From a virus, in IMG/VR virus record IMGVR_UViG_3300021185_000090, positions 1 to 25,813 of that record: a stretch of DNA of 25,813 nucleotides; one strand, written 5' to 3'. A program made the position numbers and the translations under genes. Under the pieces are notes generated by a model that was given only the letters and a program-made list of their open reading frames with translations, made no database searches and had not been told where the DNA came from. The number at the start of each line of letters is the position of its first letter. Position 1 is the stretch's first letter. This document shows, in pieces, positions 11,225 to 22,229 of this stretch.

Positions 11225-12357
11225 TTATAAATCCACTTTTGCTCTGCTATATTCCATACTTTTTTAACTTTTTCTTCTGGCGCGTCTATTCCATATTTTG
11301 ATTTTAAAGTGTCCATCCTAGCTTCAATCTGTAGCTTATCTTCAAGTTCTCTTATACGTTTATTCATTTCTGGCAACTTAGACATATCAGCCCCACTTTC
11401 CCAGAAATCGTTTATAATTCTAGCTCTAGCAATGTTAAAGTTGTTCTTTTCTATCATAATGCCAACTATAGCTTGATTTGCCTCTTGTGAGTTAGTTAAT
11501 CTACCCAAGCCAGCAATCATACCTTCAAATTCTATATCTGATGTAGAGCCAGAACCTTCAACTCTTAATGTAGGCGCAACTCTTTTTATAATAGATTGCC
11601 TCACTGCGGAATAATCGTTAAATTCTGGGAACATTTCTGCAAATCTTCCCTTAACAGCTCCAGTTGGAGCTTCGCCTGCTAAATCAAATAAAACTTGTAA
11701 ATCATAATTAACTTCAGTCGCTTTAGCACCAGCCTCCATCTGAGCCGCTAATTCCGTACCTTTACCTTTATTTAATGCTTCGAGAAACTTTTGGTTGCCC
11801 TTTTCACCTAAATTTATTGTCGTACCAGATTTAATCTGAGCCAACGCCTCTTCATGGCTCAAACCCTTAGCCCTCATAAACTCATAATTTTTCATTAAGT
11901 TTGTGCTGTTGTCTTTTGGCGCTTTTAATCTGTTTGCCGCAATTGCAGATAATACGTTGCCAGCCGCGCTTGGGTTAGCCTTAATTATCGCCGCCATGTC
12001 AGCCATGCCGTTAGCTTCTAAGTATTCAATTGTCTTGTTAACATCACCAGCTTTTACTCTTTGAGCGCCACGCTCTCTAATAGCCTCACCAGCTCTTAGC
12101 TCTGGTAAAATTACTGCATCTAATGCTTGTGCAAAATTTTCTAGCCCAGATAATCCTGTTGTGCTAGATCTTTGGTTAAGTTTATCAAATAATCCAGCCA
12201 TGCCAGTTCTTGGAGGTTGTTGACCCTGCGTCTGGGTTTGACCACCGCCAGTTACCAAAGGATTAACTGGCTTTTGAATTACCTGTTGCTGTTGCAACGG
12301 GTAGTTTCTTTGCATATTTGTTTCTTCTAGTGGGTTTCTACTTGGAAATCCTATCAT
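11221..12357 (-). CDS. Helical internal virion-type protein (378 aa)
   Basis: The start overlaps the previous gene's stop (TAATG). The first 55 residues are Gln/Pro-rich and disordered. From about residue 58 a helical body begins (GLENFAQALDAVILPELRAG), followed by repeated short helices (TIEYLEANGMADMAAIIKAN), a central region with LFDLAGEAPTGAVKGRFAEM, and a charged C-terminal coiled coil (RIRELEDKLQIEARMDTLKS). There is no signal or membrane segment. Its position between the repetitive protein and the 727-residue protein suggests a component of the ejected internal core. The family is not recognised with confidence. Confidence 0.7.
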   Translation of the reverse strand: MIGFPSRNPLEETNMQRNYPLQQQQVIQKPVNPLVTGGGQTQTQGQQPPRTGMAGLFDKLNQRSSTTGLSGLENFAQALDAVILPELRAGEAIRERGAQRVKAGDVNKTIEYLEANGMADMAAIIKANPSAAGNVLSAIAANRLKAPKDNSTNLMKNYEFMRAKGLSHEEALAQIKSGTTINLGEKGNQKFLEALNKGKGTELAAQMEAGAKATEVNYDLQVLFDLAGEAPTGAVKGRFAEMFPEFNDYSAVRQSIIKRVAPTLRVEGSGSTSDIEFEGMIAGLGRLTNSQEANQAIVGIMIEKNNFNIARARIINDFWESGADMSKLPEMNKRIRELEDKLQIEARMDTLKSKYGIDAPEEKVKKVWNIAEQKWIYK

Positions 12358-13694
12358 TAGCTTCTTGCTCCCATTACATTAGCTCCGAGCTGTAAGTAGT
12401 TGAAAAGGCCAGGTTTCATGCTGTTTATGGTTGTTGATTGGTTGGGTGTTGCGCCCAATGCCGCCAGTGGTGCAGATAGCGCTTGCATTGGTGAACCAGT
12501 GTATCCTGCATATTGAGCCTTAGCCGCATCAATAAGTGCCTGTTGCATTCCCTGCTGTAGAATACCTTGTTGCGCTTGCTGATTTTGGATTGCTTGACCA
12601 GTGCCAAATGCCTGTTGACCTAATGCACCCATTTGATTTGCCGCCTGCAATCTCGCTTGGTTAGCCCCAGCTAATGCATTCTGGTTAGCCACTTGAGCCG
12701 CCATAGCTTGTGTTGCGCCAAACTGATTTGCTTGGTTTTGCGCCGCTTGGTTTGTGAGCGCCATTTGATTAGCGGCGCTTGACCCAAATTGCGCCGCTTG
12801 GTTTTGCGCCGCTTGGTTTGTGAGTGCCATTTGATTAGCCGCACTTGCTCCAAATTGATTTGCTTGGTTTTGAGCCGCTTGATTTGTGAGTGCCATTTGA
12901 TTAGCCGCACTTGAACCAAATTGTGCCGCTTGGTTTTGCGCCGCCATATTTGCCGCCGCCGCTTGATTTGCGGCTGTTGCTCCGAATTGACCAGCCTGAT
13001 TTAGTGCCGCTTGATTTGCTAAGTTTGACTGCTGACCAAATCCAGCAGTAGTTGTGCCAGCCGCTAAATTCGCCTGCTGGTTAGCCAATGCCGCTTGTTG
13101 GGCTGTTCCTATGTCCTGCATAGCCATCTGCTGTGCTTGCGTGTATCCAGCTTGTCTGAGGCCAGATGCAGTTCTTGCCGCCTGATCAGCGAATGCGCGA
13201 TTTGTTTCAGCTTCGGCAATACCCTGACGAGATCCGCCAAACGCATTCGCAGATGTCGCCTGAGCGCCTAATTGGTTTTGCGCCATTAATCTTGATCGCT
13301 CAATGTCTTGTAGTGACTGATTTACAACTTGGCTTTCAAATGGATTTGTGTATGCGCCTAGATTAGTATTTGCTAATTGACCAGCTTGCACGTTTTGAGC
13401 TGTGACTGTCGGAGATTGTCCGATAGTGGACGCCCCGTAATTTGCGCTAGTCATTGCGCTTGGATTGTATCCAGTGGCTGATGCGTTTGCCGCATTATAC
13501 CCAGTAGACTGAGAAATAGAAGGATTGTATCCAGTGGCTGATGCGTTTGCCGCATTGTATGCAGTTGGCCTAATTGCCGCTGGTGCAAAATTCATTGCCT
13601 GCTGAGTGCCTTGCATCGCCTGTTGTAATCCGCCAGCCGCCGCTTGATTTACGTTAAAGCCGCCTTGCGGTCTGATCTGTCCACCACCAGCCAT
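12357..13694 (-). CDS. Ala/Gln/Asn-rich repetitive internal virion protein
   Basis: A 445-residue protein in which Ala, Gln and Asn dominate. The N-terminal third has repeated NAANASATGYNPS blocks. A conserved-looking central part (LGAYTNPFESQVVNQSLQDI, then RSRLMAQNQLGAQATSANAF, GGSRQGIAEAETNRAFADQA) predicts long helices. The C-terminal half is a run of heptad-like NQAAQFGSSAANQMALT repeats, 22 residues each. Such proteins are typically packed in the head of short-tailed phages and ejected with DNA to help it cross the envelope. Position beside two other helical proteins and the portal supports this; no enzymatic motif is visible. Confidence 0.75.
   Translation of the reverse strand: MAGGGQIRPQGGFNVNQAAAGGLQQAMQGTQQAMNFAPAAIRPTAYNAANASATGYNPSISQSTGYNAANASATGYNPSAMTSANYGASTIGQSPTVTAQNVQAGQLANTNLGAYTNPFESQVVNQSLQDIERSRLMAQNQLGAQATSANAFGGSRQGIAEAETNRAFADQAARTASGLRQAGYTQAQQMAMQDIGTAQQAALANQQANLAAGTTTAGFGQQSNLANQAALNQAGQFGATAANQAAAANMAAQNQAAQFGSSAANQMALTNQAAQNQANQFGASAANQMALTNQAAQNQAAQFGSSAANQMALTNQAAQNQANQFGATQAMAAQVANQNALAGANQARLQAANQMGALGQQAFGTGQAIQNQQAQQGILQQGMQQALIDAAKAQYAGYTGSPMQALSAPLAALGATPNQSTTINSMKPGLFNYLQLGANVMGARS
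12734..12931. repeat. 66-bp tandem repeats, three full units
   Basis: Units starting with ggtttgcgcc-like ggttttg at 12734, 12800 and 12866, with a fourth partial copy from 12932. They encode the 22-residue AQNQ/FG(A/S)SAANQMALT repeat of the internal virion protein, alternating AAQFGSS and ANQFGAS forms. Confidence 0.9.
13462..13556. repeat. 60-bp spaced duplicate encoding ATGYNPS blocks
   Basis: The 35 bases beginning ggattgtatccagtggctga occur at 13462 and again at 13522, exactly 60 bases apart, within the N-terminal part of the same internal protein gene. Confidence 0.85.
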
Positions 13695-17897: not shown

Positions 17898-19406
17898 TTA
17901 GGATATTTTAACCCATCTCATGTAAGAATTAGATCTATAGGTGCTTACAGTTAATGACCCACCTGATGCGATTGACACTACACCCGAAACATATTCTGTC
18001 TCATTTGAATAACCACTACAAATTGCACCGCTATGTATAGTTCCGTTACTAGAATACGCCGAACCTAACACACCAGTTATCCCCGAACCGCCCATTGTTG
18101 CGCTAAAATTATAATTTGGACTATTACTAGATACTTGATGGGCAATTAAATAAACACCAGAGCTACTTATATTTCCAGTGCCATTTGCCGAAGCTGTAAA
18201 TAGATTTCCTAAACCCCCACCACTAACTTCTGCCCAAGTTAAACCGCCAGTATTTCCTGACTGCGCTGAAAGATAATACCCATTAGTTGGGCTATTAGAA
18301 ACTTTAAGATTAGCTTCATCGACCACGTTATTAGCTATCGTTAATGATGTAGATCCTGTAACCTCACCTGTATGTGTTAGGTTAGTGTTAGTTACTGTTT
18401 CTGCGGCTGTAGCTAGTCCAGTGACGTGTCCGTAAGTATCAAGAGTAATATCTTGGATATATGTCCTGCCAGAGTTATTTGATGAGCCTTGAGATGATGT
18501 GTCGCTGTGACTTAAAGTTACATTACCAGTTCCGCCGCCCGATAGACCAGAACCAGCAGTAATTGTTTGATCATCTTTAGCTGATGTTTCAATTCCATCT
18601 AACTTGCTTTTAAGTGTAGTAGTAAAGTTTTTTTGTGTAAGACCGCCATCTCCTACGCTGTAGGTTGTGTTTGTATCTGTTGGCGTAGCCCATGTAAATG
18701 TACCATCACCATCAGAACGTAAAAACTGCGTGTTACTGCCATTACCTGTTACCTTCAAGTTGCCTGCATCAACAACATTATCTGCTATAGTTAAAGCTCC
18801 AGACCCTGTTACTTCGCCTGTATGAGTAGCATTATTTGATGAGCTTGTGCCTGCACCTATTAAGGAACGAACCTCAGATGCTGATATACCAGAAGCGAGT
18901 GAAGGTGCTGAACCATTTGTTGTTATTGCAGGGTCTGCGGTATTAGTAGCGCTTGCCTCAATCCCATCTAGTTTAGTATGGTCTGCATTTGTAAAATTTT
19001 GATCTGGTAATTCTGAAGCATTTGCTAATTCAACCCAACTACCATTATGGGCATAATAACCCTTACCAGTGGCATGAACGTGAGCAAACATGCCGTGATA
19101 AGTTGAAGCTGATGGAAGGTCATTTGTTGTTGCATACATATTGCCAAATAAAACTTTATTGCCATTTGCATTTATATCGCCTGATGTTGCTACAGTTGTA
19201 AATGAACCTGTAGACGCAGAGTTTGCACCAATTGGCGTTCCATCAATTGATCCAGAATTAATATCAATACCAGTAACAGGCGTCGTACCATCTAACAGAT
19301 TATCGACGTTATCTAGGTTGGTATTTATTTTTGTACCCCAAGTATCCTCGGACGCACCGACTTCTGGTTTTACCAAGCCATATGTGGTTGTTGTAGTATC
19401 TGCCAT
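17898..19406 (-). CDS. Tail fibre protein
   Basis: A 502-residue fibre likely to contact the host surface. The N-terminus ([20 protein letters not shown], then [13 protein letters not shown]) is the common virion-attachment start of short-tailed phage fibres. The middle has triple-stranded-fibre type modules: [13 protein letters not shown], then two related blocks [20 protein letters not shown] (about residues 190-210) and [20 protein letters not shown] (about 345-365), each followed by NLKV. The C-terminal 110 residues are Gly/Ser-rich beta and end in [13 protein letters not shown], probably the receptor-binding tip. AGGAGC precedes the start. The downstream gene is its probable chaperone. 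Confidence 0.9.
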
Positions 19407-19438: not shown

Positions 19439-19518
19439 TATCGTTCATCAATGTAAGAGAAAGACGCAGTAGGCGCTGATCGCATACTGCCACAAAAATG
19501 CTTTAATTGCAACATCAT
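19435..19518 (-). CDS. 27-residue micro-protein coupled to the tail gene
   Basis: A short frame whose first ATG (19518-19516) overlaps the stop of the 568-residue tail gene as ATGA; a second ATG follows at once. It ends with TAG at 19437-19435. The peptide begins MMLQLKHFCGSMRSAPTA and ends SYIDERY. Its stop lies within a small hairpin directly before the ribosome site of the next tail-fibre gene. Start/stop coupling identical to neighbouring true genes, and full use of an otherwise empty 108-base gap, support translation. The function is unknown; a tail accessory peptide is possible but unproven. Confidence 0.5.
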   Translation of the reverse strand: MMLQLKHFCGSMRSAPTASFSYIDERY

Positions 19519-21221
19519 GCGGCTGTCCATATTTCTGTTACTTTTGGTACTGTCTGCCATGTTTCTGTTGCGTCTGGTAAGTCTTCCCATTTCTCAACTG
19601 CACTAGCTGTAAATGCAGATGTAATGCCTATTGTTGAAATAGCTGATTTTCTAATAGACGCACTTGTAAACACATTTAATTCACAATTTATTATACTGCT
19701 ACCCACTACTGTTCTTGCTCCAATTGCAGAAACTGACAACAGTAATGGAATGTTGACCGCAGTGTTTTGCAATCTAACAAAACTTATTGAACCGCTTGAA
19801 GTTGTAGATATAGCAGAGCCAGATTGATGTATTTTTAATCCAGATGCAGTTGCCGTTGAGCTGGCGGAAGTTGTTGAAGAACCTAGTAATATTTTTTCAG
19901 CAGAAGGCGCAACTGTAAGATTTGCTGGTAATGTTGCGGATGTTTGCTGTATTAATTCAGCGCTTGAAACTACAGAAGAAATGGTTGCTGTTATTGAAGA
20001 CGCTACTCGAACACGCTTTCCTGCTGATGCAGTAGATGAAATTGTTGAAACAGATATTGCAGAACCACGAACACGATTAAATCCAACGCCTGTTACAGTT
20101 GTCGTCGATATGTTTGAGCTGTTGTTAAACTCTACATTCGGAACAGTAGATAACGATAAATTTGTATTAACTGTAGAGCTATCATTTTGCACTCTATTTG
20201 CAGTAGTTGTAGAAGATAGGTTTGCGGATATTAAACAACTGCTTGTTCTATCTCTATCTGCATCTGCCGACGTTGATAAAATTGTAGATATAGCAGAGCC
20301 AGATTGATGTATTTTTAATCCAGAAGATGTAACGCTAGATGTCGCTGATACTGTAGCGGATGCATTTTGCTTTCGTATGCATGAAGCACTAACGCTAGAT
20401 GTCGCTGATACTGTAGCAGATGCATTTTGCTTTCGTATGCATGAAGCACTAACGCTAGATGTCGCTGATACTGTAGCGGATGCATTTTGCTCTCGTATGC
20501 ATGAGGCACTAACGCTTAAAGTGCAATCAATGAATGCTGACGTGCTTTCAGCAACAATAAAATTCACATTTAATGAAGATGTCGCTGATACTGTAGCGGA
20601 TGCATTTTGCTCTCGTATGCATGAGGCACTAACACTAGATGTCGCTGATACTGTAGCGGATGCAAGGCGTTTTCTTATACATGAGGCACTAACACTAGAT
20701 GTCGCTGATACTGTAGCGGATGCATTTTGCTCTCGTATGCATGAGGCACTAACACTAGATGTCGCTGATACTGTAGCGGATGCAAGGCGTTTTCTTATAC
20801 ATGAGGCACTAACACTAGATGTCGCTGATACTGTAGCGGATGCCAGACGTTTTCTTATACATGAAGCGCTAACGCTAGATGTCGCTGATATTGTAGAAGA
20901 AACATTCCTAGTTCTTGCCGCTTCAGAGACAACAGCAGAGACAGTTGCAACAGATATGCTTGAACCACGCACACGATTAAATCCAACGCCTGTTACAGTT
21001 GTGGATTGAGATGTGGCGCTTCCGCCTATAATATTGTTTGGCGTTGTGGCTACGCTTGATGTGGCTGATACTGTTGCTGTGCCACGCGCAGTTATATTCC
21101 CAGCCACAGAAACACTTGCGGCTGGTGAAATTGTTATTGAGGCGTCTTTGACTGATCCATCAAAACCGAATGTATGTTCGCCATATAGACTGTAGCCGTA
21201 GCCGCCTCGGTAAACTGTCAT
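19515..21221 (-). CDS. Tail protein made of about 26 strict 20-residue repeats
   Basis: A 568-residue protein rich in Ser, Ala, Thr and Val. After a short N-terminal segment with GGYGYSLYGEHTFGFDG (residues 6-22) it follows a 20-residue period from about residue 21 to 540 without any insertion or deletion. The consensus is roughly R-x2-S-S-x-V/I-x-A-x3-S-V followed by variable positions. Residues 115-300 are almost identical repeats carrying CIRKRL, CIREQN or CIRKQN at the variable spot, giving cysteines at 20-residue spacing. The C-terminus (about 542-568) is different, with Trp-containing EKWEDLPDATETWQ. The pattern suggests a beta-solenoid or fibrous shaft. Neighbours are tail genes, so a tail fibre or spike role is likely; no enzyme motif is seen. 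Confidence 0.85.
   Translation of the reverse strand: MTVYRGGYGYSLYGEHTFGFDGSVKDASITISPAASVSVAGNITARGTATVSATSSVATTPNNIIGGSATSQSTTVTGVGFNRVRGSSISVATVSAVVSEAARTRNVSSTISATSSVSASCIRKRLASATVSATSSVSASCIRKRLASATVSATSSVSASCIREQNASATVSATSSVSASCIRKRLASATVSATSSVSASCIREQNASATVSATSSLNVNFIVAESTSAFIDCTLSVSASCIREQNASATVSATSSVSASCIRKQNASATVSATSSVSASCIRKQNASATVSATSSVTSSGLKIHQSGSAISTILSTSADADRDRTSSCLISANLSSTTTANRVQNDSSTVNTNLSLSTVPNVEFNNSSNISTTTVTGVGFNRVRGSAISVSTISSTASAGKRVRVASSITATISSVVSSAELIQQTSATLPANLTVAPSAEKILLGSSTTSASSTATASGLKIHQSGSAISTTSSGSISFVRLQNTAVNIPLLLSVSAIGARTVVGSSIINCELNVFTSASIRKSAISTIGITSAFTASAVEKWEDLPDATETWQTVPKVTEIWTAA
19802..19844. repeat. 43-bp exact duplicate (copy 1), partner at 20282-20324
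   Basis: The 43 bases are identical in both places and lie exactly 480 bases (eight 60-base units) apart, encoding the same SGLKIHQSGSAIST segment twice. Flanking units differ, so this looks like transfer of a single unit between in-register positions in the tail protein gene. Confidence 0.9.
20062..20102. repeat. 41-bp near-exact duplicate (copy 1), partner at 20962-21002
   Basis: The 41 bases match the partner with one mismatch (position 20070 a, 20970 c). The copies are exactly 900 bases (fifteen 60-base units) apart and both encode TVTGVGFNRVRGS, so register is preserved over a long distance. Confidence 0.9.
20282..20324. repeat. 43-bp exact duplicate (copy 2), partner at 19802-19844
   Basis: Second copy of the segment described at 19802. 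It borders the homogenised 60-bp array directly. Confidence 0.9.
20341..20880. repeat. 60-bp tandem repeats, nine units in two main types
   Basis: Each 60-base unit starts with gtcgctgatactgtagcgga and ends in actagat or a close variant. Eight units are near-identical, and the fourth (20521-20580) is a diverged unit of the same length. The middle of the unit is either attttgctctcgtatgc-like or aaggcgttttcttatac-like. These forms alternate between 20581 and 20880, which suggests copying in pairs or gene conversion. The array is entirely coding and encodes the homogenised core of the 568-residue tail protein. Confidence 0.95.
20962..21002. repeat. 41-bp near-exact duplicate (copy 2), partner at 20062-20102
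   Basis: Second copy of the segment described at 20062, near the N-terminal end of the tail protein. Confidence 0.9.
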
Positions 21222-21608: not shown

Positions 21609-22229
21609 TTAATATGCCCTTATTTTTAAACGACGACCAGAGCCGCCGTATTTAGTTTGATCGCTGACAGCGTTTATAGCGTCAACAGCGCTTTGATACA
21701 AAGCCGCCCAAGTAGTAATTCGAGCGTCTTCTTTTAAATATGGGGCTGAGTGTACCAAAGCTCCATATAAATAAGCATCTGGATATTCGCCCAGAAGCCA
21801 ATTGGTTGTATTACTGTCAGATAATGCGGGAATTTTCTGATAGTAATATAATTCAGCATCGTAAACGCCATCTGGCGCTGGATGCACTTGTAACTCGCCA
21901 GCAGTCATTGCGTAGTATCTTGGATGGCCTGACACGTTGCCAGCTCTTCGCTGTCTGTCTAGCAATTCCGCCTGCGATATTAATTCTAATGGGTTTGTCT
22001 CGCCACTCGTAATATGAAATCGAATAGGCTCTAAAAGATCCGCAGGGATCGCGCTGTATTTTGTGTCAATCTCAGCAGTGGATCTAGTTTCCATTTTCCA
22101 GTGGCGTAACTTGCGATTTAAGTCAGCCTCGGCTAAACTTATGAATGTACTAGACACAGATGTAAGATCATCACGATTTAAAAAATCTGCGAGTGTCGTC
22201 TTTAATTCTGCGTATGTTGTTATTGGCAT
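21609..22229 (-). CDS. Head-tail adaptor, SU10-like
   Basis: A 206-residue protein that probably forms the ring beneath the portal, joining head to tail nozzle. The N-terminal half is helical with the pattern YAELKTTLADFLNRDDLTS then FISLAEADLNRKLRHW, typical of the phage adaptor family found beside SU10-type and other short-tailed phage tails. The C-terminal half includes beta strands (AELYYYQKIPAL) followed by helices ending in a basic tail (SGRRLKIRAY). AGGGG lies upstream of the start. The 74-base spacer before it is one of the longest non-coding gaps in the window. The family call rests on pattern recognition, not on a search. Confidence 0.8.
   Translation of the reverse strand: MPITTYAELKTTLADFLNRDDLTSVSSTFISLAEADLNRKLRHWKMETRSTAEIDTKYSAIPADLLEPIRFHITSGETNPLELISQAELLDRQRRAGNVSGHPRYYAMTAGELQVHPAPDGVYDAELYYYQKIPALSDSNTTNWLLGEYPDAYLYGALVHSAPYLKEDARITTWAALYQSAVDAINAVSDQTKYGGSGRRLKIRAY

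Follow-up and report, generated by a model that had tools for sequence, protein, structure and literature searches.

Fibre I of Ralstonia phage GP4 is reportedly assembled from five dimers of gp80, with an elongated rope protein connecting them. The structure of its gp80 (PDB 8JOU) contains ten gp80 chains (8jou_a) together with three chains of a 93-aa protein (8jou_D), numbers that would be consistent with a fifth of a particle and five gp80 dimers per fibre. Many repeated beads per fibre are also present in the neck fibres of Anabaena phage A-1(L) (its gp80–gp82; five fibres per virion, 16 beads per ~100 nm), but the available part of their description models the beads (gp81 trimers) as joined head to tail and leaves a rope unmentioned (PMC10966104); the common name gp80 in A-1(L) and GP4 reflects numbering only. 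In case of the Alishewanella phage LSH1, known here from part of the published description, gp35 of the gp34–gp36 module matches 8JOU_g and gp34 harbours a long stretch suspected by the authors to be repetitive; LSH1 differs in being a siphophage and in the lyase-like domain of gp34 (PMC13243795). The Lessievirus repeat proteins BcepIL02 gp56 and DC1 B862_gp29 are encoded directly after gp80 and are 20-residue periodic (lag-20 z 8.0 and 6.7, respectively), but consist of diverged units without a homogenised array. Mass spectrometry of JC1 virions names gp53 (gp80) as well as gp55, whereas gp54 (the rope) is missing, in the part of the report available (PMC9144972), and a proteome note is likewise absent for phiM5_18. 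A literature search returned no paper naming a 20-residue rope beside gp80; the GP4 fibre paper, which lay outside its reach, may name the rope.

The window, i.e., the whole analysed stretch of 25,813 nucleotides (IMG/VR record IMGVR_UViG_3300021185_000090), contains a related arrangement (Table 1). A gp80-like gene (Pfam family Gp80, titled 'Podophage GP4 fiber I protein gp80') is the immediate upstream neighbour, on the same strand, of a gene encoding a repeat protein, and the portal and capsid proteins are, as the adaptor, of SU10 type. As in GP4-type phages, a gp80-family gene is followed by a gene with repeats of ~20 residues; the repeat protein of the window differs from that of GP4-type phages in length (568 versus 325 aa), unit number (~26 versus ~11 diverged units) and by its homogenised core. 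The 60-bp array forming this core probably provides the expandable links of a rope that strings gp80 beads in a side fibre, gain or loss of units changing the rope by whole links.

Table 1 Features of the candidate rope locus in the window and of a fusion protein in phage PVJ1
Feature	Position	Strand	Match or remark
568-aa repeat protein, candidate rope	19515..21221	-	conserved N-terminus (YRGGYGYSLYGEHTFGFDG), ~26 20-aa units, C-terminal tail with spaced tryptophans
N-terminal non-repeat segment of candidate rope	21141..21221	-	kept in relatives
Homogenised 60-bp array	20341..20880	-	eight near-identical units (core types KRL, EQN, KQN) and one diverged cassette
Exact 147-bp repeat tract, offset 120	20577..20843	-	duplicated KRL-EQN pair; copies 20697-20843 and 20577-20723
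Diverged cassette	20481..20600	-	SLNVNFIVAESTSAFIDCTL; held within these two register units; related cassette in L002
C-terminal segment of candidate rope	19518..19595	-	tryptophans ~10 residues apart; 10-aa differences among relatives
gp80-like bead protein, 126 aa	21227..21607	-	Pfam Gp80, E 2.4e-41; PDB 8jou_a, E 6.4e-10
SU10-type adaptor protein, upstream of gp80	21609..22229	-	Pfam, E 1.8e-37
502-aa tail-fibre-like protein, directly downstream of candidate rope	17898..19406	-	PHROG 9729
Repeat and Mu gp48-like fusion protein	L113 4396-5421 (Psychrobacillus phage PVJ1)

The gene order adaptor, gp80, repeat protein and tail fibre is common to the window and phage phiM5, and the N-termini of the two fibre proteins are alike (phiM5: L111, 5973–7148). 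Elsewhere on the minus strand, a second in-frame tandem array with a period of 66 bp (12713–13018) is located in a 445-aa Gln/Ala/Asn-rich protein (ORF 12357–13694) that has no match in Pfam or PHROG. In a 105-aa protein (450–767, minus), hydrophobic segments accompany an EF-hand-like calcium motif whose Pfam match (E 2e-5) narrowly misses the cut-off.

Self-similarity of the 568-aa protein at a lag of 20 residues is pronounced over the entire length (z = 20.8 versus shuffles) and retained in the diverged part (residues 300–545, z = 6.9), i.e., the 20-residue period reaches beyond the array. The repeat is without a name in Pfam, tblastn yielded no match to the protein among named phages, and comparison of the repeat proteins with PDB sequences gave no useful direct match, no 8JOU chain matching any of the ropes tried. 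Tandem Repeats Finder reports 9.4 copies of a 60-bp unit (20330–20896). The homogenised array proposed in the initial annotation is real: it is in frame in the 568-aa ORF, with a near-identical centre and diverged flanks. Its description as two alternating unit types needs revision, since three core types occur (in protein direction KRL, KRL, EQN, KRL, EQN, the diverged cassette NFIVAEST.., EQN, KQN, KQN) and strict alternation is confined to KRL-EQN-KRL-EQN, i.e., to one duplicated pair.

DNA identity amounts to 100 % for the unit pairs at residues 128/168 and 148/188 and to 98 % for 248/268, the longest exact repeat within the array measuring 147 bp. Units beyond the array are mostly 30–50 % alike; the likeness of two distant pairs (68/368, 77 %; 288/448, 70 %) may hint at older exchanges between units. 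Units 128–188 have DNA variants in common which are absent from all other units of the window and from the listed units of relatives except the identical phage piece L003, a pattern that a recent local duplication would leave. Unit similarity within phages exceeds that between phages (0.877 versus 0.854, P 0.04; L003, L010, L012, L013 and L014 left out as duplicates or pieces), a signal of concerted evolution that is weak, since different phages have the KRL and EQN DNA types in common. From the originally suggested alternatives of recent amplification or conversion, the exact 120-bp duplication with its private variants argues for amplification; in view of the weak signal, homogenisation seems to stem from duplication on a local scale and not from conversion across the whole array. 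A 210-aa open frame opposite the array (plus strand, 20377–21009) is probably a by-product of the codon pattern of the repeat.

Linkage of such repeat proteins to gp80 was surveyed with gp80 loci gathered from rope, adaptor and gp80 scans as well as from cultured phages. Among 80 adaptor loci, 78 were examined (two cut-short loci were left out); in 72 of these 78, gp80 is present and the gene after it can be read, and 68 of the 72 next genes display, as judged by eye, a rope-type N-terminus, which the remaining four (L104–L106 and L108) lack on the same visual inspection. A downstream ORF of at least 80 aa follows 325 of 340 gp80 ORFs, corresponding to 271 distinct proteins. Overlaps on the same contig occur among the 340 loci, and deduplication of the proteins by sequence preceded the count. 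A z of at least 5 was reached by 184 of the 271, with the best lag being 20 in 145 and 40 in 25 (together 170/271), as compared to only 2 of 239 distinct ORFs in the upstream controls. The survey is uneven in that 204 of the 340 loci belong to one gp80 cluster. At the level of clusters (23 at 60 % identity), 19 have a gene at position +1; most loci show a 20-periodic +1 gene in 9 of these 19, the other 10 being without such a majority, and at the remaining positions (-4 to -1, +2 to +5) a 20-periodic majority is found in 0 to 2 clusters. The period-40 protein of cluster 7 (L327) resembles an ordinary tail fibre and is likely a false positive in the survey counts, which probably concerns at least this one of the clusters with hits.

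Lag-20 periodicity among named phages is not limited to the two Lessievirus proteins, but ranges from high z values in MEP401 (9.7) and POI1126 (6.7) via PBC5 (4.7), JC1 (4.4), phiM5 (3.4) and BcepMigl (3.3) to weak ones in CRP-4 (2.8), Itty13 (2.7) and PVJ1 (2.6, whole protein). In DB2 and Hocus, lag 20 is outside the top four lags, and of the three proteins inspected from positions 1–50000 of Slicko01, none was gp80-like or periodic. In the siphophage PVJ1, the protein after gp80 is 20-periodic over its first 128 residues (z 5.6) and continues with a Mu gp48-like baseplate domain (E 1.6e-21). This fusion ties the repeats to the tail, suggesting a possible attachment place of such a rope. A different layout is found in L289 (799–3969), where the 1056-aa protein after gp80 has a long N-terminal part and its strongest 20-residue repeats near the C-terminal end.

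Scanning with the gp80 of 8JOU retrieved one locus (L355) with 100 % identity to 8jou_a over 128 aa and four more with 98 %. In each of these GP4-type loci, a 325-aa protein is encoded directly after gp80. That of L355 (2206–3183) can be parsed by hand into ~11 units of 19–23 aa (lag-20 z = 5.9, residues 20–245); the closeness of this number to the ten gp80 subunits is suggestive only. The GP4-type protein belongs to the same PHROG as the DC1 protein (19041, 'virion structural protein') and has no PDB sequence match at E ≤ 10. A relative of 8jou_D is encoded two genes after the rope in L364 (same record as L357), and an HMM of six relatives detected none at E ≤ 10 in the frames of at least 50 aa of the window, which represents a partial genome.

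The period of the units would also suit a self-folding β-solenoid or trimeric β-helix as fibre shaft, with one coil per 20 residues and gp80 as a neighbour of separate function. AlphaFold2 indeed predicts repeated strands at residues ~130–300 of the window protein (pLDDT ~70–84; mean of the protein 51.7), with alternating strands of ~6 and ~10 residues in the near-perfect units. However, AlphaFold2 is described to produce confident but unrealistic solenoids for perfect repeats in the part of the report available (PMC11795689), and on account of this bias the models cannot decide between solenoid and rope. Moreover, pLDDT is low in the diverged half of the window protein (mostly <55) and in the diverged rope L205 (mean 42.4), and the linkage to gp80 would be left unexplained. 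A solenoid shaft is considered unlikely.

Relatives retrieved by scanning IMG/VR with the window repeat protein (29 loci) include complete proteins of 558, 448, 428, 408, 288 and 278 residues. The gp80 DNA of L002, L005, L006 and L008–L012 is 95–97 % identical to that of the window, and at this close relationship the CIR-type units per protein vary from one (L009–L012) up to seven (L002), compared to eight in the window. Unit order is KRL KRL EQN EQN, cassette, KRL EQN EQN in L002, KRL EQN KRL in L005, and KRL EQN KRL EQN followed by the contig end in L015. Number and order of units, in which strain variation was to be looked for according to the initial annotation, do vary among relatives, and the fixed number and order that it had named as a refuting outcome was not seen in the close ones. 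The 147 distinct complete periodic ropes form 160 pairs with both ends in common, 47 of them of unequal length; here, the length difference modulo 20 is 0 in 18, 1 in 11, 2 in 7 and 19 in 2 pairs (38/47 in total), and 10 in the other 9. Such 10-residue steps would agree with the changes seen in the W-spaced tail of relatives.

Variation in order and number among close relatives, together with the different charge of the unit types, could also be taken to reflect a receptor-binding or surface-variation device, in which unit shuffling alters the chemistry (RKRL versus REQN) shown to hosts or defences. Such a device appears improbable, since the protein terminates in a conserved tail of spaced tryptophans and not in a variable tip domain, a separate tail-fibre-like gene adjoins, and the same period is kept behind gp80 in unrelated phages. 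The place behind gp80 and the recurrence of this period in many unrelated phages favour a structural rope of changing length over the varying tail surface originally proposed; the KRL/EQN difference could still alter surface chemistry.

The unit consensus is roughly [ILA]-[ST]-x-x-[ST]-x-[VL]-[ST]-[AS]-x-[AG]-x-R-[VI]-x-x-[AG]-x-A-x. Aligned across clusters, units read, e.g., ISTTSSVSASciReRnASAT, aASESSLSVSAVRYAVASFT, ITGNATVTAdAiRVQFASAS and LTGTGTLSAvGlkTqfALAD, most of them with an arginine near position 13. The motif was tested on GP4 and 11 clusters, each cluster being represented by one best protein (z ≥ 6, at least 150 aa) after trimming of the ends; of 132 ordered pairs, 60 were significant at P ≤ 0.05 versus a column-permuted null that keeps the period. 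This motif test was used instead of circular correlation of hydrophobicity profiles, which gave inconsistent results (14 of 66 cluster pairs below 0.05). Profile homology between window and cluster-4 ropes spans the units and the W tail (hhalign probability 98.1 %, in another run 98.6 %; eight column shuffles ≤0.1 %). In case of the GP4-type versus window ropes, profile comparison yielded an hhalign probability of 0.1–0.2 %, equal to the shuffles, and the unit-level test gave P 0.36 and 0.68 versus cluster 0 (that of the window) as compared to P 0.004 and 0.002 versus cluster 4. Thus, the link to GP4 rests on gp80, position and period.

The low-complexity Ser/Thr/Ala sequence and the length range of 199 to 568 aa among the rope and adaptor scan loci might equally be expected from a neutral disordered linker drifting in length by slippage with no functional effect. 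This is hardly probable, as the 20-residue frame is kept even in diverged units and the motif with its arginine is kept across clusters.

Nine of the 29 IMG/VR contigs end inside the repeat gene. L014 ends and L003 starts inside the exact-repeat tract; both originate from one metagenome and are 100 % identical to the window in whatever gp80, adaptor and fibre DNA each holds. Likewise, the array holds the end of L015 and the start of L004 in another metagenome. Because contigs of the same phage break within the exact-repeat tract, the copy number in the window is unsafe and may be wrong. That the array as a whole is mis-assembled and its homogeneity a result of collapse, as such breaks might suggest, is very improbable, since L003, from another record, has the identical downstream part of the array and other metagenomes hold similar arrays with intact frames; doubt is limited to how many copies of the 120-bp pair there are.

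In a rope stringing gp80-type beads, the array would code for the central links, and the resulting flexible side fibre would belong to a phage whose head, portal and adaptor proteins are of SU10 type. A single gp80 subunit or dimer may dock onto each unit of 20 residues, and the rope may be anchored at one end by the conserved N-terminus and at the other by the tryptophan tail. Near-identity of the central units at the DNA level would allow recombination or slippage during replication to add, remove and reorder whole units with the frame kept, and by such in-frame changes the rope, and probably the fibre too, would change in 20-residue steps while the bead gene remains constant. The sequences show the repeat, its variation by whole in-frame units and its linkage to gp80; physical binding of gp80 to the rope, the bead count and an effect on infection are what we infer. 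Speaking against such a rope are the missing gp54 among the named JC1 virion proteins and the likewise absent note for phiM5_18, the lack of profile homology between GP4-type and window ropes, the undetected 8jou_D relative in the window, the 10 of 19 clusters without a 20-periodic majority, and the weak or lacking signal in DB2, Hocus, CRP-4 and Itty13. Tentatively, one may envisage a molecular ruler: with one unit docking one gp80 subunit or dimer, amplification or loss of 60-bp units would set bead number and fibre reach, and populations might keep a standing mixture of fibre lengths via recombination in the core, with the bead fixed.

The analysis proposes a candidate gene for the elongated rope that is said to lie between the gp80 beads in GP4. 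It would offer a simple route to study how phages set and change fibre length, and may aid annotation of the unnamed protein encoded behind gp80 in many metagenome phages and in several cultured ones.
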